Shown one piece after another: positions 23,644-39,100 of a stretch of 64,000 nucleotides of DNA. Each line of letters opens with the position of its first letter. Positions within the stretch are counted from its first letter, which is position 1. This stretch comes from Chryseobacterium sp. SORGH_AS_0447 (lineage in GTDB: Bacteria; Bacteroidota; Bacteroidia; Flavobacteriales; Weeksellaceae). Location of the stretch: contig NZ_JAUTAR010000001.1 in NCBI RefSeq assembly GCF_030818695.1, forward strand, positions 3,714,501 to 3,778,500, in the 5' to 3' direction. The notes under the pieces are model-generated. The model was not told the origin of the DNA, made no database searches, and saw only the letters and a program-made list of their open reading frames with translations. The translations under genes were made by a program, and so were the position numbers.

Positions 23644-24879
23644 ATGAAAACATTTCTTGGTTCTTTAGTTTTATTTATTTTCCTTCCATTACAGATATAC
23701 AGCCAGCAGACTTTATCAGCTGATGACTTATTTCTAAAAGCAAGAACGGCAGCATTTGAAAATAAAGACTATCCTACTTCTATTGCACTGGCTAAAGAAG
23801 CGCTGGAAAAGGCACCCAACTATACCGATATCTCTGTTTTTTTGGGAAGAGTGTATACATGGAACAAAGATCCAGAATCTGCAAGAGCTGTTTTTGAAGG
23901 GCTTTCCAAAAGAGGAGTTCAGGACGAGGATTATTTCATAGCCTACGCTTCCCTGGAGTACTGGAACGATCAGTATACGAAATCCATTGAGATCCTGGAT
24001 CAGGGATTGTCTTACCATCCCCAGTCTGAGGCACTCCTGCTTCTGAAAGCGAAGGTTTATTTTGCCGACAAGCAATACGCAGAAGCCGAAAATGCAGTAA
24101 AAAAAGTTCTTGAAATCAATAACAAAAATACCGAAGCGGTTAACCTGGCCGTCCGGATCAATGAGCTTAATTCCAAAAATGCCATCGGTATTACCTACAA
24201 TTATTCTCATTTCGATAAGCAGTTCGACCATGACTGGCATATTGTAGGCGTAAGCTATAAAAGAGTAACACCTATCGGTTCGGTGATCCTCAGAGGAAAT
24301 TATGCCAGTAAATTCGGGCAGAGCGGTACCCAGCTGGAGCTGGAAGCCTATCCCAGATTATCGCCCATGTTTTACCTGTATGTAGGCGGCGCCTATTCCG
24401 GTGATGTCGGTATATTTCCGAAGTACCGTACCGGTGTTTCGCTGAATGCCAATCTTCCGCACAGTTTTGAAGCAGAAATCGGTTACCGTCAGCTGTACTT
24501 TACCGATAACATCTGGTTGTATACTGCTTCCGTGGGTAAATATTACAAAAACTTCTGGTTTAATCTCCGTGCTTACCTTACACCGGATAACAGCAATATT
24601 TCCCAATCCTATACGGCAACCGTAAGATACTATACCAGAAGCGCACAGGACTATTTTGCTTTTCAGATCGGATCGGGGATCAGTCCGGAAGAAAACCGCA
24701 ATAATCTTCTTGGCAATGATGCTTATAAGCTTAAAACATTTAAAATTGGGGCGGAATACAATTTCTCAGTCAAATCAAACCTCTTTTCGATCGGTACGAT
24801 GTATTACAACCAAGAATATCTTCCCCATACAACAGGAAGCCAGTTTGATGTGAATTTAGGCTATACGGTGAAGTTTTAA
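23644..24879 (+). CDS. YaiO-family outer-membrane beta-barrel protein with TPR domain
   Basis: 411 residues. Signal peptide (LGSLVLFIFLPLQIYSQQ), then TPR repeats over about residues 20-175 (SIALAKEALEKAPNYTDIS, SIEILDQGLSYHPQSEALL, YAEAENAVKKVLEINNKN), then an antiparallel beta-barrel of about 230 residues that ends in Phe (LGYTVKF), as outer-membrane proteins do. This is the YaiO family layout. In exopolysaccharide systems a TPR-plus-barrel protein commonly forms the export portal (compare PgaA and BcsC). It converges on the GT2/LtaS-like fusion operon, 208 bases away, so a role as portal for that product is plausible but inferred. Confidence 0.88.
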   Translation: MKTFLGSLVLFIFLPLQIYSQQTLSADDLFLKARTAAFENKDYPTSIALAKEALEKAPNYTDISVFLGRVYTWNKDPESARAVFEGLSKRGVQDEDYFIAYASLEYWNDQYTKSIEILDQGLSYHPQSEALLLLKAKVYFADKQYAEAENAVKKVLEINNKNTEAVNLAVRINELNSKNAIGITYNYSHFDKQFDHDWHIVGVSYKRVTPIGSVILRGNYASKFGQSGTQLELEAYPRLSPMFYLYVGGAYSGDVGIFPKYRTGVSLNANLPHSFEAEIGYRQLYFTDNIWLYTASVGKYYKNFWFNLRAYLTPDNSNISQSYTATVRYYTRSAQDYFAFQIGSGISPEENRNNLLGNDAYKLKTFKIGAEYNFSVKSNLFSIGTMYYNQEYLPHTTGSQFDVNLGYTVKF

Positions 24880-25087: not shown

Positions 25088-28000
25088 TTATTTTTTATCT
25101 TTAAAAAAATTAGCGATGACAGCATCCGGCATGAGTTTTCCGGAAGCATAAAAGCTTGCATTCATATTTTTAAACCGGTTAAATCTTTGACTGACTTCTT
25201 TTAACGTTGATTCATTCTGATAAGGATCCGAACCATATTCATTAATGATCAGCAGTTCAGAATCATGAATATAATGCTTTCCTGAAACGAAATCGATCAT
25301 CATGTCTTTGCTCTGCATGATCGGAACATCAACTTTATTCCTGTCCGAATCCGGTGAAAATCCTCTTCCTACCCAGGCAACCGTCGCAGGAGTCTTCAAC
25401 TGATAATTATTCCTGTAATAAGCTAAGAGAGAAGGAGCCACATCAAAGTGACTCGCGGTTTTCTGAAAGCGCTTCGGTTCTTTTAGCAAAGGAGAATAAA
25501 TCATCAGGGGCACATGGAAACGGTCGATATGAGATTCCAGGGTAATTTCCGGCATACTGTGGTCTCCCGTAATCATAAAAATGGTATTTGCAAAATCCGG
25601 ACGTTTGCGGTAGTTTTCAAAAAACTGTCTCAAGGCGTCATCAGCGTTGATTACTGAGATCAGTTGATTTTTAAACGCTCCCGCCATCTTTTTCTGTTCC
25701 GGAGACAAGATATTGGATTGCAGCCTTTTATTGTAAAGGCTTTCGTAATAACTGCTTTTATTAATTAAAAACGGATTGTGCGTGGAAAGCGTAAGAACCA
25801 TATTGAAATAGGGTTGTTGCTGAGGCTTCTGGATATCAAGCATTTTACTGAAAACGGCCTGGTCTTCATATCCCCAGCTCGATCCGTTATGGGCCGGAAG
25901 CTTTTGGTAAGGACTGCCGAATGAAGATTCATCTACAATATGATCAACCCGGCTGTATTCCAGGAACTCCCGGTAACGGTCGAATGAGACATCGCCCCCG
26001 TAATAAAATCCGGTTTCAAAACCGTTATGTTTCAGGATATTGAAAAGATTAAAGTTCTCCGGCGTCTGGCCTATTTCCAGGAAGCCGTTCCTGCCGAAAG
26101 GAAGTGACCCGGTAAGCGAAGGGAGCGCACCGAAGGTTCGTCCCGCCGAACTCAGGCCATTTTCCCAGTACAGACTTTGCCGGGACAAAGAATCCAGGAA
26201 AGGGGTAAAATTCCCGATGTAACCCTTAGGAGAAGTATAAGCATGGCCGAACCCCTCCAAAACGACAAAAACAAGATTAGGCGTTTCAGCGGAACGGTTG
26301 AAGTAAGCACCTAAAAAGTCCGGTGTATTTTCTTTACGCCAGAACGGGAATGCTTTATCCAGGGTTTCCGCACTTGCAGCAAAGCTTTCCCGATCCTCAA
26401 ACAGATCCCTGATTTCCGGATGGTCATTTAAAAAGTTATCTTCATTGGATTTAAAGAAATAGGCCCACTTGCTTTTGGCAGCGGTCCGGCTGAAGAGATT
26501 GGTATCATCTGATCCTCCGGACAAGATACCATCCGGAATAAAAAATGAAAGCAGACCGATACCTAAGAATCCTATTCCGACATACATGGATTTAAAGGTC
26601 GATTTCCCCGCCATCCATAAAGGCACCACTGTCGCGCCGGCCAGAATTATCAGTAATGCTAAGTTTTTAATGCTCAGCATTCCGCTGGCCTGTAATGTTT
26701 CTTTAATTTCTTCTTTGCTGTAATACAGGACATCTGCTCCGAGCATATTCTGGGTTTCCGAGAAATACAAAAACAGAATATACTGCATGATGGCCACCAG
26801 TGCAAATGCGACCAAGGCTATAAATCTTGCCCAGCTCTCCTTTATACAGTTGATGATCAGATAAATGATTCCTATTCCGAATATCATTCTAAAGGCAAAT
26901 AAGATATTTCCAAGAAACAATCCGCTCGCGATACGGCTTGTATCCAATCCGGGAAGATAATACCTGTACCAAAGCCATTCAGCGGTTACCCCTACCATAA
27001 ACAGGAGCAGAAAAACCGAAGAAATGACTCCCCATTTTTTGAGACCATTCTGAAGAATTGCTGAAATCCTGGCTTTAAAAGGCAAGTTCTCAACGGTCTG
27101 GCTGAAGCCCTGCCTTTTCATTTCTCCCCAGCCATGAGATTTTTTAAAGTAATCGATAAACCCGTTGACTCCCGCCTTCACCACGATCGGATGAAAATAG
27201 AAGGGTTCTGAAAATGCCGTTCCAATCAAACTTAGGAAGTCTTTTTTCTTTGTATATACTTTGTAGCTTACAAGATCCACCAGGATCCCGTAAATTGAAT
27301 ACAGGAAGCCCAATGAAATTACCAACGCAGCAAGAATCATGAAAAAAGGCCAGTTGATGATGCCCAGAAAAAGGAAAACAATAAAAATGATATATCCTAA
27401 AAACTCAACCAAAGGACCCAAAAATTCAAAAAAGAACCAATACGGAAGACTTACCATCCCCAGTTTTCCATATTTTGGGTTGAACATCAGCTTGCGGTGC
27501 TTCCACAGGGTTTCCATAGTTCCCCGCATCCATCTGTTTCTCTGTTTTCTGAGGATGTCTTTGCTTTCCGGAACTTCCGTCCAGCATAAAGGATCAGGAA
27601 TCGTAGCGACCTGATAAGGTTCTTTCTGCTCTTCCATATATTTCCTCATCCGCACTACCAGCTCCATATCCTCTCCTACCGTATTCCGGTCATAACCGCC
27701 ACACTCCAATACAATTTTCCGGTCAAAGACACCGAAAGCACCGGAAATCAGGATCAGTCCGGATGCCCTTGACCAGGCCATCCGACCCAGTACGAAAGCC
27801 CTGATATATTCCAAAGCCTGTGTTCTGCCCAACAGCGTCCGGGGCATATTTACACTGACCACTTTCCCGTCTTCGATCACACAATTATTGGCAAGGCGGA
27901 TAATCCCGCCACAGGCAATTATTTTTTTATCAGTCTGTTCCAGAAAAGGTTTTGCCAGCTTTAAGATGGCATCCTGCTCCAGGATACAGTCGACATCGAT

Positions 28001-28513
28001 GCAAACCAGATATTCTCCCGACGATACATTGATCCCTACATTTAAGGCATCAGCTTTTCCTCCGTTTTCCTTATCAACGATGATGAGCTTTTTAAAAGCC
28101 GGATTTTTACTTTTATAAATTCCCCTTACCTTATTGGTTTCAATGGTACCCTGAACAAAAAAAGACACCCATTCCAGCTCGTAGGCTTCTATTAATTTCT
28201 GTAAAGAATCGTCTTTACTCCCATCATTCACGATTATAATTTCCAGATTATGGTAATAAAGAGATAGCAGGGACCTCACATTTTCCACAATCGTCATTCC
28301 TTCATTATAAGCCGGTGCAATAATACTGAAAACCGGAGCATTCGGATTGGCAGCGATGATGCTGTAGTCGGTAAATGTATTTACTTTTTTATAGCGGATT
28401 ACCGCTCCCAGCGCATAGATTCCGATCCAGCCGTAAATAAGAGCTACGGCTGCACCATACAACAGGAACAACCATATCACAATTTCGTAGATGATGTGCG
28501 AAAATTCTGTCAT
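25088..28513 (-). CDS. Fusion of GT2 glycan synthase and LTA-synthase-like phosphotransferase
   Basis: 1141 residues. Residues 1-450 are a processive membrane GT2 synthase of the BcsA/PgaC type: VND near 95-97, DVD at 173-175, ED at 281-282 and QRNRW at 324-328, flanked by membrane helices. Residues about 490-665 carry five or so more membrane helices. Residues about 740-1070 form an alkaline-phosphatase/sulfatase domain like LtaS: VVLEGFG (Glu753), AGRTFG (Thr793, candidate nucleophile) and TGDHSMP (Asp984, His985). The order and spacing agree with LtaS Glu255, Thr300, Asp475 and His476. I infer that it polymerises a glycan and transfers phosphoglycerol or another phospho-group from a lipid to it. 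Last gene of a four-gene operon; the start overlaps the HEAT gene by 4 bases. Confidence 0.9.
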   Translation of the reverse strand: MTEFSHIIYEIVIWLFLLYGAAVALIYGWIGIYALGAVIRYKKVNTFTDYSIIAANPNAPVFSIIAPAYNEGMTIVENVRSLLSLYYHNLEIIIVNDGSKDDSLQKLIEAYELEWVSFFVQGTIETNKVRGIYKSKNPAFKKLIIVDKENGGKADALNVGINVSSGEYLVCIDVDCILEQDAILKLAKPFLEQTDKKIIACGGIIRLANNCVIEDGKVVSVNMPRTLLGRTQALEYIRAFVLGRMAWSRASGLILISGAFGVFDRKIVLECGGYDRNTVGEDMELVVRMRKYMEEQKEPYQVATIPDPLCWTEVPESKDILRKQRNRWMRGTMETLWKHRKLMFNPKYGKLGMVSLPYWFFFEFLGPLVEFLGYIIFIVFLFLGIINWPFFMILAALVISLGFLYSIYGILVDLVSYKVYTKKKDFLSLIGTAFSEPFYFHPIVVKAGVNGFIDYFKKSHGWGEMKRQGFSQTVENLPFKARISAILQNGLKKWGVISSVFLLLFMVGVTAEWLWYRYYLPGLDTSRIASGLFLGNILFAFRMIFGIGIIYLIINCIKESWARFIALVAFALVAIMQYILFLYFSETQNMLGADVLYYSKEEIKETLQASGMLSIKNLALLIILAGATVVPLWMAGKSTFKSMYVGIGFLGIGLLSFFIPDGILSGGSDDTNLFSRTAAKSKWAYFFKSNEDNFLNDHPEIRDLFEDRESFAASAETLDKAFPFWRKENTPDFLGAYFNRSAETPNLVFVVLEGFGHAYTSPKGYIGNFTPFLDSLSRQSLYWENGLSSAGRTFGALPSLTGSLPFGRNGFLEIGQTPENFNLFNILKHNGFETGFYYGGDVSFDRYREFLEYSRVDHIVDESSFGSPYQKLPAHNGSSWGYEDQAVFSKMLDIQKPQQQPYFNMVLTLSTHNPFLINKSSYYESLYNKRLQSNILSPEQKKMAGAFKNQLISVINADDALRQFFENYRKRPDFANTIFMITGDHSMPEITLESHIDRFHVPLMIYSPLLKEPKRFQKTASHFDVAPSLLAYYRNNYQLKTPATVAWVGRGFSPDSDRNKVDVPIMQSKDMMIDFVSGKHYIHDSELLIINEYGSDPYQNESTLKEVSQRFNRFKNMNASFYASGKLMPDAVIANFFKDKK

Positions 28514-29574
28514 ATTCTTTCTTGGAGCGCGTGTTTAATAATTTGAACCAATTCTTCAGGAGCATCCTCATCCTGTTCCAGCCGGATCAGGTAATCGTGA
28601 TACCCTAAGGAAAAAAGGGCTTCTGCGGCGTGAATTTTAATAGCCGGAAAAGGGTTCTCCAATAATTCTTTCTTTAATAAATCCGTGATGCTCCGGTCTT
28701 TTGAAACTTTCATGGCCCGAAGAATTTCGATCCGTACTTCAAGAGGCTGATGCGGATAAATTTCCATAAGATCACCTACAGTAGAAGGATTATCCAGTGA
28801 CAGAAGCGTCTGTACCACCTGTATCCTGACTTCGGAAGAGGCATGTTCCAGCAGTCCCATTACTTCTTGATAGAAAGAAAGCAGCTGAAATTTTCTGATC
28901 AGCTTTAAAGTGAAAATAATGACGGAATCATTGGTACTGGTAAGCCACTTTTCAATGGAAGATCCTGAATCTTCGGGAATACTCGTTATGGAAAGCAGAA
29001 GCCTGAGCTGCTGCCATTCTGAAATCCTCCCTTCTGCGGTGTCAAGGAAACTCAATCCTTCAAATCCTTTTAAACTTACCATCGCATACTGAGCTTCCTG
29101 ATAAACCTCTGATGAAGCATGTGAAAGAAAACCGGAAATCCGGGGAAGAGCATCTGCGGAATCCATTACAGTAAGCTCCTGTATGCCTCCCGCAATCAGG
29201 AAAGCTTTCTTCTGGCCCAGCTTCTTTTCCGCTTCACGATGAAGACCATATTTGTTAAATAAATCTTTAATCTTGTCTTTCGCCATCCCCGAAAATTTCT
29301 TTTCCGAGTCTACCAGCCTCTGTAAAAGCAGGTTTCTGAAAGAAGGATTGGCCGAAAACTGTTGGAAAGCAGGATTATCCGGCTGATCCGGTTCGTCATA
29401 TACAATGACTTCCGATATTTTCTCATTGATGATTTGTAACCACCCGGACAGGCGCACAGTTTCTCTGTACTGAAAAAAACCGTAGAGAAGCACTCCTATG
29501 ATCAGTAACACCACCAGCAGCAATATCGCGAGCAATACCAGCACAAAGAAGTGCACAGAAGTGATTGTCTCCAT
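28510..29574 (-). CDS. Membrane-anchored HEAT-repeat protein
   Basis: 354 residues. One N-terminal transmembrane helix (FFVLVLLAILLLVVLLIIGVLLYG, about residues 9-33), a linker, then alpha-helical HEAT/armadillo-like repeats to the C-terminus, for example ALPRISGFLSHASSEVYQ, VMGLLEHASSEVRIQVVQTL, IYPHQPLEVRIEILRAM and ENPFPAIKIHAAEALFSLG. Such scaffolds bind partner proteins. The stop shares ATGA with the start of the GT2/phosphotransferase gene, and the receiver-domain gene is 7 bases upstream. I infer a link between the regulator and the synthase, perhaps binding the phosphorylated receiver. No catalytic motif. Confidence 0.85.
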   Translation of the reverse strand: METITSVHFFVLVLLAILLLVVLLIIGVLLYGFFQYRETVRLSGWLQIINEKISEVIVYDEPDQPDNPAFQQFSANPSFRNLLLQRLVDSEKKFSGMAKDKIKDLFNKYGLHREAEKKLGQKKAFLIAGGIQELTVMDSADALPRISGFLSHASSEVYQEAQYAMVSLKGFEGLSFLDTAEGRISEWQQLRLLLSITSIPEDSGSSIEKWLTSTNDSVIIFTLKLIRKFQLLSFYQEVMGLLEHASSEVRIQVVQTLLSLDNPSTVGDLMEIYPHQPLEVRIEILRAMKVSKDRSITDLLKKELLENPFPAIKIHAAEALFSLGYHDYLIRLEQDEDAPEELVQIIKHALQERI

Positions 29575-29581
29575 ATCGATT

Positions 29582-29938
29582 TCAGTTTTTCATAAACCTT
29601 TTAATTCTCAGTATCAGCTCATTAGGACTAAAAGGTTTTACAATAAAATCCGAAGCACCCAAATCGAAAGCATTCAGCACCACTTCTTCCTGCCCCATGC
29701 TCGACAGCATAATTACAGGGATCTGTTTTCCCATAGACTGTATGGCAGAGAGGATTTCAATTCCTGAAGCAAAAGGCATCATAATATCGGTAATGGCCAG
29801 ATCTACCTCTTCTTCTCTTAATTTTTCGATGGCTTCTTTGCCATTTCGGGTTAAAATAACTTCATGCCCTTCTTTCAGCAATTTATGCTCTATCGTTTTT
29901 AAAATCAGTTCATCATCTTCTGCAATCAGAATCAGCAT
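29582..29938 (-). CDS. Single-domain response regulator (CheY-like)
   Basis: 118 residues, nothing but a receiver domain: acidic pair EDD near residues 8-10, phospho-acceptor Asp51 in LAITDIMMPFASG, Ser in VIMLSSMG, and Lys in FIVKPFSPNELI. No output domain, so it must act by protein contact or phosphorelay. It lies 13 bases after the hybrid kinase gene, whose HPt domain is a natural donor, and 7 bases before the HEAT-repeat gene. ATG at 29938. Confidence 0.92.
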   Translation of the reverse strand: MLILIAEDDELILKTIEHKLLKEGHEVILTRNGKEAIEKLREEEVDLAITDIMMPFASGIEILSAIQSMGKQIPVIMLSSMGQEEVVLNAFDLGASDFIVKPFSPNELILRIKRFMKN

Positions 29939-29951
29939 AGCTTTTATTTTT

Positions 29952-32900
29952 TTATTTAATCAAAGATTTAATCATGTTTAATCCAACGGTTATTTCGCCG
30001 ATAATTTCCTTTTGCAGGGAAAGAAAATCGATTTCCTGATCTTTTTTTTCTTCCCAATGCAAGGCTGTTTTGGCGAGTTTCACCAATCCGGCCGTACCTG
30101 CAGTTCCCCTGAGTTTATGAAGTATTCTTCCCAATTCGCCGGCATTTTTTTCTGCAACGGCTGTTTGGATACTGCTTTCCGCCTGGCTGATCTCGCTCAT
30201 TACCAACTGTAAAAACATTTGTTTAAAATCCTCATCATCTCCGGTCTGTTCATGAAGGAGATTCATATCAATAATCCCTTCCGTATTTACACTATTTTCT
30301 GCCTCAGCATTTTCCTTAGTCAGGTATTTTTGCAGCATTTCCAAAAGATCGGCTTGGCGCAATGGTTTGGGAAGGAAATCATCCATCCCCGAGGCCAGGC
30401 ATTTTTCTTTTTCGCCGGCTATCGTTCCGGCCGTTACTCCAATAATCGGCACTTCTTCATAGCCCGGAAGCTGACGAATTCTCTTTGTTGCTTCCATACC
30501 ATCCATTACCGGCATCTGAACGTCCATCAGGATAATAGAAAAATTCCCGCTTTTGCACTGTTCCAAGGCTTCCAGACCATTTACGGCTTCTGTAAGTTTT
30601 GCATCAGGCACCAGCGAGGTCATCATTTTATGGTTAAGGATCATGTTTACCGGATTATCATCCACCAACAGCACCTGAAGTTCAGGAATAGCCAAAACCT
30701 GCTCTTCCGTATTTTGAGGAGTCAGTCCCGGAAGTTCTTTTTCATTATTGTCCACCGCTTTTCTGAGGGTTCTGTACAATTCTTCCGATTTAATAGGCTT
30801 TAGCAGGAAATAAGAGTTTTCTTCCTGACGGAAAGAATTGATGACATCGTGCTCTTCCGAAGAAGTATGGAGAACCACGAGCGGAGAGGTTTCGTTCTGC
30901 TTACTGAACAAAGCCTTGATCTTTTCTATCGTTTCCAGTCCTGAAATTACCGGCATATGATAATCCATAAGAATAATATCGAAACGTTCACCGGACAGCA
31001 AGATCTGTAATGCTTCCATTCCGTTCGCTGCCAGTTTGGAATCAATGTTTTTATAGGCGAGCATGTGCTGAAGGATAATTCTGTTTGCTTCGTTATCATC
31101 TACTACCAGTGCTCTTTTTATTTTCAGATCCTCATCACCGTTTATTTCAGAGAATTCAAAAGGCACTTCAATATCAAAATAAAACACGGAACCTTTGTTC
31201 GGAGCACTGTTTAGCTGAAGATGGGTTCCCATGTATCCCAGGATATTGTTGGAAATGGTGAGTCCAAGCCCTGTTCCGCCATAACGCTTACTGATCGAGC
31301 TGTTTTCCTGGGTAAAAGCATTAAAGATATACTGCTGTTTTTCTTCTGCAATCCCAACGCCCGTATCCCGTACGGCAAAACGGAGTTTTATTTTTTCTTC
31401 GTGTATGTGCAGTTTCTCTACTTTAAGTTCGATCTCGCCCTGTTCCGTAAACTTCACGGCATTCCCTAAAAGGTTGATCAGGATCTGTTTCAGTCTGGAT
31501 TCATCGATCCATAATGTTTTAGGCAGTCCTGGCTCGATATTCAGTAACAGTTCAATATTTTTCTTCTGGGACTGATAAAGAATAACGTTGATCACCTGGT
31601 TTACCAGATCATACACATTGCATTTCTCAATAACAAGTTCCATTTTACCGGATTCGATTTTAGAAAAATCGAGGATATCGTTGATGATGGTCAGTAAGTT
31701 TTCTCCTGATTCGTTGATGTAGTTAAGATATTGTTTCTGGGTTTCATTAAGCGGTGTTTTGAGCAGAAGATCCGAAAAGCCGATCACCCCGTTCAGCGGC
31801 GTCCGTATTTCATGGCTCATATTCGCCAGGAATTCAGATTTCGCCTTGCTTGCAATATCGGCCATCTTTTTGGCTTCCTTCAGTTCGTTGTTGGTTTTTA
31901 CCTTATTCGTGATGTTCTGTACCGAAACAATAACACCGCCGATTACACCATCCGACAAATACCACGGCCTTACTTCAAGGTCATAATGTTGCTCCTCCTC
32001 TTTATGGCTGACTTTAAGTATAAAATCATCGTTTTTGTAAGCTTTACCGCTTATGGCATTCCGGTAAATGGATTGGATTTCGTCGGAAACGTTTGGTGAA
32101 ACGGCAAAGATGTTTTCACCTACAAGTTCCAGGTCGTTCATATTAAACTCGTCCTTCCAGCAATTACTGGCCGACAGGTAATTCAGGTTTTTGTCGAACA
32201 TCGCTACGGCAACCGGAGCATACGCTACAAAAGACTGCAGCATCGCTTCTTTTTTCGACAGTTCAAGGTAAAGCTTTTTAAATGCATCGATATCCTGAAT
32301 AATTCCAAAAACCCTGACACAGACGTCACCCTCAAACTCAGGGATTGCTTTTACCCTCACCCAGATCATAACGCCGTCCTGCCGTACCAGCTGGAATTCT
32401 TCATCGTACCCTACTCCTTCAGATATCGTCCTGCCGAATAAAAACTCTACTTTTGCCCGGTCTTCTTCGCGGTAAAAACGCACCGCCTCCTGGAACTCAG
32501 GCTGATAATCCGGGGATACTTTGTGGATTTCCTTAGTGGTCTGCGACCAGAATACGGTTTGGTTCTTAAGATCTACTTCCCATCCTCCAACCTGGGCTGC
32601 GGCACTGGTCTGTTCCAGGATTTTCTTTGTATACAGAAGATCTTTTTCCAGCAGCATCCTTTCTGTTATATTCAGGGCTGTACTCAGAACATAAGGATTT
32701 CCCTCTTTATCATACTCAACACGGTTGTGGTACATCCAGATCAGTTCTTCACCTTCCTTTGTTTTCAGGATCATCGTTCCCAGATGCTCCTTATTTTGGT
32801 TGATATACTGCAAATACTCCTGAAGCCCTTTGTGATTTTTTTCAGGAACCAAGTCTTTTAAATTGAGCCCTTCAACCTCTTCTTCCGAATAATGCAGGGT

Positions 32901-33857
32901 TTCCCTTCCTTTTTTGTTTACTTCGAGAATATTGCCCTCCATATCATGCATACTCATCAAACCGATTGCATTTTCAAAAAAGCGTCTGAAACGGCGTTCG
33001 GAGCTTTCCAGCTGCATTTTCTCTTCAGTATGCTGGGTAATATTGGTTCCGAAGCAAAAGATTTCAGAATGATTATCATTATGCGTCATATACCATTCGA
33101 TGATCACATTATGGGCACCATTTATTTTGGAAGAAGTGGTCACCATCAGTTCTTCATCATTTTCAATAAAATGGTTGATTTTTTCGCTAATATCGTTAGG
33201 CTGATCTCCCAAGACATCCATAAAATGCTTTGCAGCAAGCTGATTCCGGCCTATTAGAAAGGCCTGTTCGAAAGCGGGATTAATATCTTTCAGCACCAGC
33301 TTATCGCTCAGGACACAAATCGGGTTGTTTGAAACATCGAAGATTTGCTGAAAGTATTCGGCCTGAATATTTTTTCTCTTGGCAATAAGCAATTTGGTAA
33401 CCGCTTCTCCTAATTTTTTGAGCGTAGAAATTTGCTCTTCCGATAAAATTTTCGGTTCATTGTTAAGAACACATAGAGTACCAAGGGCAAATCCTTCGTC
33501 ATCAACAAGCGGAACGCCTGCGTAAAAACGGATTCCTGCTTCGAGAACCACCGAATTTCCGGAGGACCGTTCATCAAGCAAGGTATCTTCGATAATTACC
33601 ATCTGTCCGGTAGCTACAGGATAATGACAGATTGCATCTTTTCTTTCAAGAACATCGATAGAGGCTCCGATACAGCTCTTGACCGTATGGGTCTCACTTC
33701 CCATAATGGCGATAAAAGAAATCTGACACCCGGAAATCAGACGTGCCGTTTCGGTAAAGATATCCAACTGAGGATCTTTAGAGAGGTTTAATAAATCTAG
33801 GAGCTCGAGCCTTTTGATTCTCTCTTTTTCATTATCTGGAATCGGATAAATATTCAT
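29952..33857 (-). CDS. Hybrid sensor histidine kinase (GAF, multiple PAS, HisKA, HATPase, two REC, HPt)
   Basis: 1301 residues, no obvious membrane segment, so cytoplasmic. Order: GAF about 20-160 (ACVPL-like stretch FYAGVPLVDDEGFALGTLCV); four PAS domains about 165-275, 288-400, 410-525 and 540-650; HisKA with His682 in SHEIRTPLNG; HATPase with N799 region INLLGNAVKF, DTGVG and GTGLG; receiver 1 with Asp965 (ILMDYHMPV); receiver 2 with Asp1112 (ILMDVQMPV); and a C-terminal HPt domain with His1247 (ILHKLRGTAG). This is a complete BarA-like phosphorelay in one chain. The HPt can pass phosphate to the single-domain receiver 13 bases downstream. The GAF and PAS domains suggest small-molecule or redox sensing; the signal is unknown. 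Confidence 0.95.
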   Translation of the reverse strand: MNIYPIPDNEKERIKRLELLDLLNLSKDPQLDIFTETARLISGCQISFIAIMGSETHTVKSCIGASIDVLERKDAICHYPVATGQMVIIEDTLLDERSSGNSVVLEAGIRFYAGVPLVDDEGFALGTLCVLNNEPKILSEEQISTLKKLGEAVTKLLIAKRKNIQAEYFQQIFDVSNNPICVLSDKLVLKDINPAFEQAFLIGRNQLAAKHFMDVLGDQPNDISEKINHFIENDEELMVTTSSKINGAHNVIIEWYMTHNDNHSEIFCFGTNITQHTEEKMQLESSERRFRRFFENAIGLMSMHDMEGNILEVNKKGRETLHYSEEEVEGLNLKDLVPEKNHKGLQEYLQYINQNKEHLGTMILKTKEGEELIWMYHNRVEYDKEGNPYVLSTALNITERMLLEKDLLYTKKILEQTSAAAQVGGWEVDLKNQTVFWSQTTKEIHKVSPDYQPEFQEAVRFYREEDRAKVEFLFGRTISEGVGYDEEFQLVRQDGVMIWVRVKAIPEFEGDVCVRVFGIIQDIDAFKKLYLELSKKEAMLQSFVAYAPVAVAMFDKNLNYLSASNCWKDEFNMNDLELVGENIFAVSPNVSDEIQSIYRNAISGKAYKNDDFILKVSHKEEEQHYDLEVRPWYLSDGVIGGVIVSVQNITNKVKTNNELKEAKKMADIASKAKSEFLANMSHEIRTPLNGVIGFSDLLLKTPLNETQKQYLNYINESGENLLTIINDILDFSKIESGKMELVIEKCNVYDLVNQVINVILYQSQKKNIELLLNIEPGLPKTLWIDESRLKQILINLLGNAVKFTEQGEIELKVEKLHIHEEKIKLRFAVRDTGVGIAEEKQQYIFNAFTQENSSISKRYGGTGLGLTISNNILGYMGTHLQLNSAPNKGSVFYFDIEVPFEFSEINGDEDLKIKRALVVDDNEANRIILQHMLAYKNIDSKLAANGMEALQILLSGERFDIILMDYHMPVISGLETIEKIKALFSKQNETSPLVVLHTSSEEHDVINSFRQEENSYFLLKPIKSEELYRTLRKAVDNNEKELPGLTPQNTEEQVLAIPELQVLLVDDNPVNMILNHKMMTSLVPDAKLTEAVNGLEALEQCKSGNFSIILMDVQMPVMDGMEATKRIRQLPGYEEVPIIGVTAGTIAGEKEKCLASGMDDFLPKPLRQADLLEMLQKYLTKENAEAENSVNTEGIIDMNLLHEQTGDDEDFKQMFLQLVMSEISQAESSIQTAVAEKNAGELGRILHKLRGTAGTAGLVKLAKTALHWEEKKDQEIDFLSLQKEIIGEITVGLNMIKSLIK

Positions 33858-34202: not shown

Positions 34203-34277
34203 CGGGGCGTAGCGTAGTCCGGTCATCGCGCCTGGTTTGGGACCAGGAGGTCGCAGGTTCGAATCCTGCCGCCCCGA
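34203..34277 (+). tRNA. tRNA-Pro (UGG), second copy
   Basis: Acceptor CGGGGCG/CGCCCCG, anticodon TGG within CCTGG TTTGGGA CCAGG. Identical over its full 75 bases to the copy at 16610-16684. Confidence 0.95.
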
Positions 34278-34295: not shown

Positions 34296-34369
34296 GGGTG
34301 CGTAGCTCAGCTGGATAGAGCATCTGCCTTCTAAGCAGACGGTCAAAGGTTCGAATCCTTTCGCGCTCA
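34296..34369 (+). tRNA. tRNA-Arg (UCU), second copy
   Basis: Anticodon TCT, 74 bases, identical to the copy at 16735-16808, including the two G-U pairs of the acceptor stem. The spacer to tRNA-Pro (18 bases) is shorter than and unrelated to the 50-base spacer of the first cassette. Confidence 0.95.
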
Positions 34370-37660: not shown

Positions 37661-38662
37661 CTAAGACATATGCAAATTATATCTTATTAAATTTACAAAA
37701 GGTTCATCTCTTTTTATCACCGCAAATATCCGGTATACTAATTTACAGCAAACCGCATTAATAATTGATTTATGTGGCTTTCCCTGCTGTTTTTTTCTTT
37801 TATAATAAGCTTTTAGTTCCTCATCATGGATGACAGCAGCATTGGCTCCACTGAAGAGAATGGTTTTTATTGTTTTATTTCTAAGCTTACAGGTTTGCGT
37901 TTTACCTTTGATACTTGATCCTGAGCTGTGCTCAAAAGGGGCAAGGCCGGCATAACAGTTGAATTTCCTTGGATTTTTAAAACTTGTAAAATTATCAGTC
38001 AGTACGACCATATAAGCTGCTGTAAGAAAGCCTACTCCTTTTATTTTAGTTATCTTTTCGAAATTCTTACTGATATCTTCACTGTTTTCAATCTCATCCT
38101 GTATTTCTTTTTCTGTTGAGGCAATGTCTTTATTAAGCTGTTCTATATAGGCTGTTATGTGCTTTGTCTGGTAACTTACATCCGCAACCTCTCCAGCATG
38201 TTGAAAAGACTTTTTCTGATTTTTAAATTGGGTTCTGATCTTTACCAGATGATTCCTGTAAGTGAGAAGATGCTTTACTTTAAGAAGACCTTTCTTAGGA
38301 AGCCGGGAAGCAACAAGCTCATCGGAATGAACCTTGGCATAACGGGCTATCCTGAAGGCATCCGTTTTATCATTCTTACCCCGCTGGATTCCCTGACTTA
38401 GCTTTATAGCAAGGGCCGGAACCTGATAATACGTTTTCTCATTCTGCTCAAGCACGCCTGCTAAAAGTAAACCATAGTTCCCTGTATTTTCAAAACAATA
38501 CCGAAGTTCACCATCTTCACAAAAAGTCTTATCCAGTATACTTTCTATTCCTTTTACCGTATTTTCCACCGTAAAGAAAATTTCCTGCTTGTCCGAATCA
38601 TTAATCATACAGATATCCAATGTGTTTTTGGAAATATCTATTCCAATAAAATAAGTTTTCAT
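37661..38662 (-). CDS. IS110-family transposase (DEDD recombinase)
   Basis: 333 residues, full length for the family. N-terminal RuvC-like DEDD domain: TYFIGIDISKNTLDI (first Asp), CFENTGNYG (Glu), KNDKTDAFRIARYA (the Asp pair). C-terminal Transposase_20 domain: KIKGVGFLTAAYMVVL (helix-hairpin-helix-like) and YAGLAPFEHSSGSSIKG (conserved Ser region now known to form the covalent bond with DNA). No frameshift is seen, so it may be active. The stop lies 4 bases from the proposed right end, which leaves the long non-coding left end upstream of the start for the guide RNA. Confidence 0.95.
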   Translation of the reverse strand: MKTYFIGIDISKNTLDICMINDSDKQEIFFTVENTVKGIESILDKTFCEDGELRYCFENTGNYGLLLAGVLEQNEKTYYQVPALAIKLSQGIQRGKNDKTDAFRIARYAKVHSDELVASRLPKKGLLKVKHLLTYRNHLVKIRTQFKNQKKSFQHAGEVADVSYQTKHITAYIEQLNKDIASTEKEIQDEIENSEDISKNFEKITKIKGVGFLTAAYMVVLTDNFTSFKNPRKFNCYAGLAPFEHSSGSSIKGKTQTCKLRNKTIKTILFSGANAAVIHDEELKAYYKRKKQQGKPHKSIINAVCCKLVYRIFAVIKRDEPFVNLIRYNLHMS

Positions 38663-38895: not shown

Positions 38896-39014
38896 ATCTG
38901 TGGTCAACAAAAATCAATAGTCATTCAACATCCTGCTTCCAGCAAATCCGTGGAAGAATTAACGTGGTTGCTGATTTACGCCATAATGTCGAACCTTACT
39001 ACCCATTCCCTAGC

Positions 39015-39068
39015 CCCGATTGCCGTGGAAATCCTTTTTTGAAAAAAAAGATTGCAACAGAAAGCGGG
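39015..39068. repeat. Imperfect inverted repeat with T/A-rich tip
   Basis: CCCGATTGCCGTGG followed by AAATCCTTTTTT mirrors GAAAAAAAAGATTGC and CGGG on the other arm. It looks like one of the palindromic intergenic elements that are scattered in flavobacterial genomes (from memory, unchecked). No gene is present between 38903 and 39298. Confidence 0.55.
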
Positions 39069-39100
39069 AAAAAGCTCAAAAAAAACATGAATGAGAGTCG

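Follow-up and report, generated by a model that had tools for sequence, protein, structure and literature searches.

INTRODUCTION

Established synthase-dependent exopolysaccharide systems consist of an inner-membrane synthase, a TPR protein and a barrel in the outer membrane; cyclic di-GMP (c-di-GMP) frequently controls their synthases, acting at a site or via a partner protein (PMC9601211, PMC12802240). Post-translational control of synthase-made polysaccharides has been described mainly through this nucleotide (PMC12802240). The single-domain receiver EpsW stimulates an enzyme of exopolysaccharide synthesis, apparently through contact (PMC12802240). Two phosphotransferases are relevant here: BcsG, which sits with the cellulose synthase BcsA, adds phosphoethanolamine (PMC11379886), and OpgB transfers phosphoglycerol onto a periplasmic glucan (PMC3818809). 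In this work we analysed a stretch of 64,000 nucleotides from Chryseobacterium sp. SORGH_AS_0447 (contig NZ_JAUTAR010000001.1, positions 3,714,501 to 3,778,500), called the window, and describe an operon that encodes a hybrid histidine kinase, a lone receiver, a HEAT-repeat membrane protein and a fusion of a family 2 glycosyltransferase (GT2) with an LtaS-like phosphotransferase. We place the locus among the synthase-dependent polysaccharide systems, from whose known members a proposed HEAT subunit and, in the window's lineage, the fused phosphotransferase set it apart.

The PgaABCD system shares with the locus an inner-membrane processive GT2, a TPR and outer-membrane barrel portal, and a non-catalytic membrane partner of the synthase. 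In the poly-N-acetylglucosamine system this partner is PgaD, whereas here it is a one-helix HEAT solenoid; the operon moreover has no deacetylase, and a signal from a receiver is proposed. The Bcs/BcsG system also has a membrane phosphotransferase with five transmembrane helices that stands beside a synthase and acts on the glycan (PMC11379886), but here the transferase is covalently fused, and its sequence matches are models or chains of LtaS, LtaP, OpgB and YejM. In OpgB/OpgH, a membrane glucan synthase is likewise combined with a head-group transferase adding phosphoglycerol (PMC3818809); here the two are fused and accompanied by an outer-membrane barrel and by the HEAT and receiver proteins. 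LtaS and LtaP have the same catalytic E, T, D and H, five predicted transmembrane helices and fold, whereas the window enzyme is fused to a GT2, lies beside a HEAT gene and occurs in a Gram-negative organism. EpsW-EpsZ of Myxococcus xanthus resembles our locus in the post-translational control of polysaccharide synthesis by a single-domain receiver, but its target is the initiating phosphoglycosyl transferase of a Wzx/Wzy pathway, and a HEAT protein is unmentioned in the available sections (PMC12802240). Finally, in the yaiO-yaiX-yaiP stretch of E. coli K-12, yaiO lies near the glycosyltransferase gene yaiP, whose product is a distant relative of the window GT2 (26% over 231 columns), but no HEAT protein, receiver or phosphotransferase is annotated within these 4 kb.

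Our searches of an open-access literature collection showed no description of this HEAT/receiver/GT2 system; no paper in it combined YaiO with a HEAT repeat, and none combined HEAT repeat, response regulator, glycosyl transferase and Flavobacterium. The terms Bacteroid, HEAT repeat, YaiO, Flavobacter and response regulator are all unmentioned in PMC7112194, as is YaiO in PMC9601211.

RESULTS AND DISCUSSION

The four genes lie on the minus strand in the order kinase (29952..33857), receiver (29582..29938), HEAT protein (28510..29574) and GT2::LtaS-like fusion (25088..28513), with intergenic distances of 13, 7 and -4 bases. A gene for a YaiO-family protein (23644..24879, plus strand) converges on them, 208 bp past the last stop codon. 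This layout, which an earlier note had described from the DNA letters and a list of open reading frames (hereafter the original prediction), was confirmed by the open reading frame coordinates and the domains. The nearest named relatives of the window are Chryseobacterium and a metagenome-assembled genome of the Weeksellaceae.

We searched for the fusion in two sets of genomes, 148 from the family and 296 from the phylum. Matches were found in 33 family genomes (E <= 1e-100) and in 70 phylum genomes (E <= 1e-70), many of the latter spanning the GT2 half only. We then used as anchors 97 GT2 genes in fetched Bacteroidota stretches, some of them closely related to each other. Besides the window and its paralogue L122, they comprise nine named loci (L008-L016), one stretch each from 14 of the 33 family genomes with a match, and every GT2 place of the phylum sample except G275 and same-genus places. 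Genes were labelled with profiles that started from the window proteins and were extended with sequences from these loci. A HEAT gene lies directly upstream of the GT2 gene, on the same strand and within 400 bp, at 94 anchors; a receiver within 3.5 kb and a YaiO barrel within 7 kb are each present at 76. The neighbourhood is thus conserved well outside close relatives, and this condition, which could have refuted the original prediction, did not do so. For the phylum sample alone (72 anchors) the counts were 70 for HEAT, 53 for the receiver, 23 for the LtaS-like enzyme and 53 for YaiO-profile matches, which, unlike barrel counts, can include TPR stretches of LtaS-like proteins. When the window HEAT protein itself was the query, it found 36 places in 32 of the 296 phylum genomes, and all 36 stand beside a GT2 of this kind, 32 within 400 bp and four within 1.9 kb. 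Compared with the original prediction the emphasis shifts: the core of the system is HEAT followed by GT2, and neither the LtaS-like half nor the kinase occurs at every locus.

Three anchors have no HEAT gene: L120, where a weak HEAT-profile match is seen, L121, with a broken GT2 and a contig end nearby, and L122. In L121 the GT2 gene is in two pieces, and the open reading frame upstream, near the contig end, encodes what we take to be an insertion sequence transposase. L122 (8741-12139), from the same genome as the window, encodes a second polymer synthase, a GH18-polysaccharide deacetylase-GT2 fusion of 1132 amino acids without a HEAT neighbour; it is the single contrast case for a GT2 lacking HEAT.

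The window HEAT protein has 354 amino acids, with one N-terminal transmembrane helix and a solenoid matching HEAT_2 (Pfam), and its model (mean predicted local distance difference test, pLDDT, 95.7) shows a long N-terminal helix followed by the solenoid. An N-terminal hydrophobic helix is present in 92 of the 94 HEAT proteins, and Pfam detected HEAT_2 in 46 of 49 scanned. Lysine and arginine are richer after than before this helix in 88 of 89 proteins scored (five of the 94 were unscored), and from this charge asymmetry the solenoid probably faces the cytoplasm, within reach of a receiver. In the long HEAT proteins of L065 and L073, HEAT is the only Pfam domain, and the extra part of the L065 protein is unmatched. 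A search for divergent HEAT proteins gave Fodinibius/Aliifodinibius relatives among the matches listed, and general HEAT proteins of other phyla more weakly. Natural HEAT-synthase or receiver-HEAT fusions, which would be an argument for contact, were seen neither in the fetched loci nor among the matches listed (120 of 223 and 120 of 249), where the length limit would hide HEAT-synthase fusions. The long open reading frames in L108 and L113 proved to be overlapping frames.

The fusion protein has 1141 amino acids and matches Glycos_transf_2 and Sulfatase (Pfam); its model has a mean pLDDT of 88.6 and a predicted template modelling score of 0.59. Hydropathy shows one segment, then region 359-417 (two helices in the model), and then five segments in the LtaS-like half. 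The GT2 half (residues about 1-480; 27074..28513, minus strand) is of the processive type and carries DVD at 173-175, ED at 281-282 and QRNRW at 324-328. These motifs are well conserved in relatives, with the Q and W of QxxRW found in 97 of 98 sequences and the R in 90. The best solved membrane-synthase folds for this half are the Chlorella-virus and Xenopus hyaluronan synthases, and the GT2 enzymes that its sequence profile matches include chondroitin and heparosan synthases. The D,D,D,QxxRW signature, the membrane helices and a TPR-linked outer-membrane barrel encoded nearby are all present, as in synthase-dependent exopolysaccharide systems.

In the LtaS-like half (residues about 490-1141; 25088..27046, minus strand), E753, T793, D984 and H985 occupy positions whose catalytic roles are known from LtaS. 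All residues that the original prediction had named in the two enzyme halves are present and well conserved; at position 793, 47 aligned relatives have threonine in 41 cases, serine in four, asparagine in one and a gap in one. Formylglycine sulfatases use cysteine or serine as the nucleophile, and we rejected this assignment because Thr793 stands in its place. The best solved folds for the half are VP1736, LtaP and LtaS, with YejM and sulfatases also matching, and by sequence profile it matches VP1736 (1.6e-49) and LtaS chains (best 3.6e-24). With the E/T/D/H set, an LtaS-like fold and five transmembrane helices, it belongs to the LtaS-type phosphotransferase superfamily. Because five transmembrane helices precede it, the catalytic domain is predicted to be periplasmic if the GT2 domain is taken as cytoplasmic. 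The OpgB model matches weakly (1.1e-5; 23.7 against 574 bits, NCBIfam), and neither EptA nor BcsG families appear among the Pfam, NCBIfam and profile matches listed.

An LtaS-like gene or domain lies within 9 kb at 43 of the 97 anchors. It is fused at 24 of them, 19 in the window's family and five outside it (L051, L052, L054, L055, L056), and is a separate neighbour at 19, which include L045, with its parts in broken frames, and L066 twice, for one shared LtaS-like gene. The fusion was therefore rejected as a defining feature, since the enzyme is separate at 19 anchors and was not found at 54. The LtaS-like half alone found 30 places in 28 of the 296 genomes (E <= 1e-45), and 28 of these have a GT2 place no more than 10 kb away, which ten of them overlap; a further match, on the short contig L125, stands alongside receiver and HEAT fragments. 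Fourteen LtaS-like proteins have a C-terminal stretch that matches the YaiO profile in its TPR part and not in its barrel part, which ties those proteins to export. Pfam likewise finds TPR in all four stand-alone LtaS-like proteins scanned, but it detects no TPR in the L054 fusion. Proteins of a family of about 390 amino acids are encoded near the synthase in nine loci (L052, 6843-8030; L053, L056, L057, L073-L075, L086 and L087), each with an LtaS-like gene or domain as well; the L052 protein is Pfam-negative, and the three sequences inspected have a hydrophobic N-terminal segment.

The YaiO protein of the window (411 amino acids) has TPR and YaiO regions and a signal-like N-terminus, and it passes the TIGR04390 cut-off (191.9 against 32 bits, NCBIfam). 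Among the 76 anchors with a barrel nearby, the gene is on the strand of the GT2 in 45 and on the opposite strand in 31. Taken together, motifs, folds, the YaiO profile and the neighbourhood support the view that the locus encodes a polysaccharide synthase, an LtaS-type phosphotransferase and an export barrel, as originally proposed.

The lone receiver (118 amino acids) has the acidic residues, phosphoacceptor aspartate (D51) and lysine (K101) of a single-domain response regulator, and has no output domain. It is upstream on the GT2's strand at 73 of the 97 anchors; among the 76 nearest receivers, D51 is kept in 71 and K101 in 74, and 72 are shorter than 200 amino acids. The kinase (1301 amino acids) contains GAF, PAS, HisKA, HATPase_c, two receiver domains and an HPt domain (Pfam), with H682, D965, D1112 and H1247 in intact motifs (numbered from motif starts). 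No hydrophobic segment in it reaches the threshold used, and it is thus predicted to be soluble.

We propose, as a reading that we rate somewhat better than even, that the locus is a synthase-dependent exopolysaccharide system with a HEAT regulatory subunit read by a lone receiver and with optional decoration of the phosphoglycerol type. The hyaluronan-synthase/PgaC-like GT2 would polymerise a glycan and move the chain across the inner membrane, the fused LtaS-like half would place a phospholipid head group on the emerging chain in the periplasm, and the TPR/barrel YaiO protein would take the chain across the outer membrane. Phosphoglycerol is our first choice for the head group because the LtaS-like half most resembles glycerol-phosphate transferases and OpgB offers a precedent on a periplasmic glucan; phosphoethanolamine is possible by analogy with BcsG. 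The HEAT protein may stand beside the synthase as a regulatory subunit, in the position that PgaD or a PilZ domain holds in c-di-GMP-controlled systems. The soluble kinase would pass phosphate through its HPt domain to the lone receiver, whose binding to the solenoid would set synthase activity; that the receiver signals to HEAT, and HEAT to the synthase, is the simplest reading. We infer these contacts and the sign of the regulation, as well as the polymer, its export and the phosphate donor and acceptor. A wider proposal, tentative and in our judgement a little short of even, is that the HEAT membrane protein serves as regulatory subunit for an entire family of Bacteroidota polysaccharide synthases, with a phosphorylated receiver rather than c-di-GMP gating synthesis through the solenoid, and that the window's family has joined synthesis and phospho-decoration in one polypeptide.

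Several observations weigh against this picture. The GT2 half falls far below the cut-off of the PgaC/IcaA equivalog TIGR03937 (129.1 against 422.3 bits) and the LtaS-like half far below that of the LtaS equivalog NF053595 (42.8 against 970 bits; both NCBIfam), and the phosphoethanolamine transferase MCR-1 appears at rank 46 among the fold matches, so the phosphate donor could be other than phosphoglycerol. A fold search with the HEAT model gave generic solenoids only. No YaiO barrel lies within 7 kb at 21 of the 97 anchors, one LtaS-half match (G239:C41) has no GT2 place nearby, and within the genus the system is patchy, with a match in 12 genomes (our own included) and none in at least eight. 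The kinase gene directly precedes just 31 of the 76 receivers, and we rejected it as a core component for this reason; kinase and phosphotransferase are both present in the window, as the original prediction held, but as parts of the system they are lineage-specific. Moreover, 21 anchors, including the whole group L114-L119, have no receiver within 3.5 kb, so that HEAT can work without one. These receiver-free loci, about a fifth of the total, favour the explanation that HEAT serves constitutively as a scaffold for assembling or localising the synthase, while the receiver acts elsewhere, for example by relay to a DNA-binding regulator, and the operon serves co-expression only. The kinase, which ends in HPt, could indeed phosphorylate several receivers. 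Such a scaffold accords less well with the placing of the receiver directly before HEAT across many families, its gene ending within 150 bp upstream at 62 of the 94 anchors having HEAT, or with the small size and retained phosphorylation residues of nearly all nearest receivers; we regard it as unlikely, though deserving serious weight.

A cyclic dinucleotide bound by HEAT or the synthase might instead be the signal, leaving the lone receiver as a relic or modulator. In L089 (6167-7954) a receiver-GGDEF protein (Pfam) lies directly before HEAT, and receivers of 520-546 amino acids, like it in length, precede HEAT in L098, L100 and L101; in L116 the synthase is followed by a GGDEF gene (Pfam), and in L114 and L117 by proteins assigned by GGDEF motif only. 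In some lineages c-di-GMP could thus be the signal. However, none of the four long receivers showed the canonical GGDEF motif, and Pfam matched neither PilZ nor PgaD in the four operon proteins or YaiO, and we consider this explanation improbable. The phosphorelay input put forward originally needs to be modified: the receiver-free anchors and the GGDEF proteins of L089 and L116 indicate that a simple phosphorelay does not provide the input at every locus. It is also conceivable that the product of the GT2 half is a glycolipid or a short primer, onto which the LtaS-like half builds a glycerol-phosphate polymer, giving a teichoic-acid-like product in a Gram-negative cell. By fold and by profile, LtaS and LtaP are among the closest relatives of the C-terminal half, but the processive QxxRW signature and hyaluronan-synthase-like fold of the synthase half speak against this reading, as does the lack of an LtaS-like gene or domain within 9 kb of the GT2 at 54 of the 97 anchors; we think it very unlikely.

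If a HEAT subunit read by a receiver is indeed the regulator, there is for the first time a model of how a widespread class of Bacteroidota surface or biofilm polymers is regulated, and the close pairing of HEAT with GT2 becomes a marker for locating such systems. The fusion would offer a single-chain model of head-group decoration coupled to chain emergence, for which the cellulose system needs a separate complex.

The surroundings of the core vary among lineages. In L114-L119 an epimerase-family gene directly precedes HEAT, and for the L116 protein the closest solved structures are UDP-glucuronate decarboxylases; these neighbours and the GGDEF proteins of L114, L116 and L117 are hints to donor sugars and c-di-GMP input in those lineages. 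In L054, L080, L082 and L088 the GT2 is followed by a YaiO gene, a gene for about 740 amino acids and a receiver, and the protein of about 740 amino acids in L080 is a DUF4838 protein with a GH20b domain. L066 has a tandem pair of HEAT-GT2 modules, with the LtaS-like gene at the first. In the window itself, the kinase gene is preceded by a gap of 856 bp that contains two tRNA genes (34203-34277 and 34296-34369, plus strand; Rfam), and an IS110-type transposase gene (37661-38662, minus strand) is found about 350 bp from a Flavo-1 RNA match (39008-39075, plus strand; Rfam).

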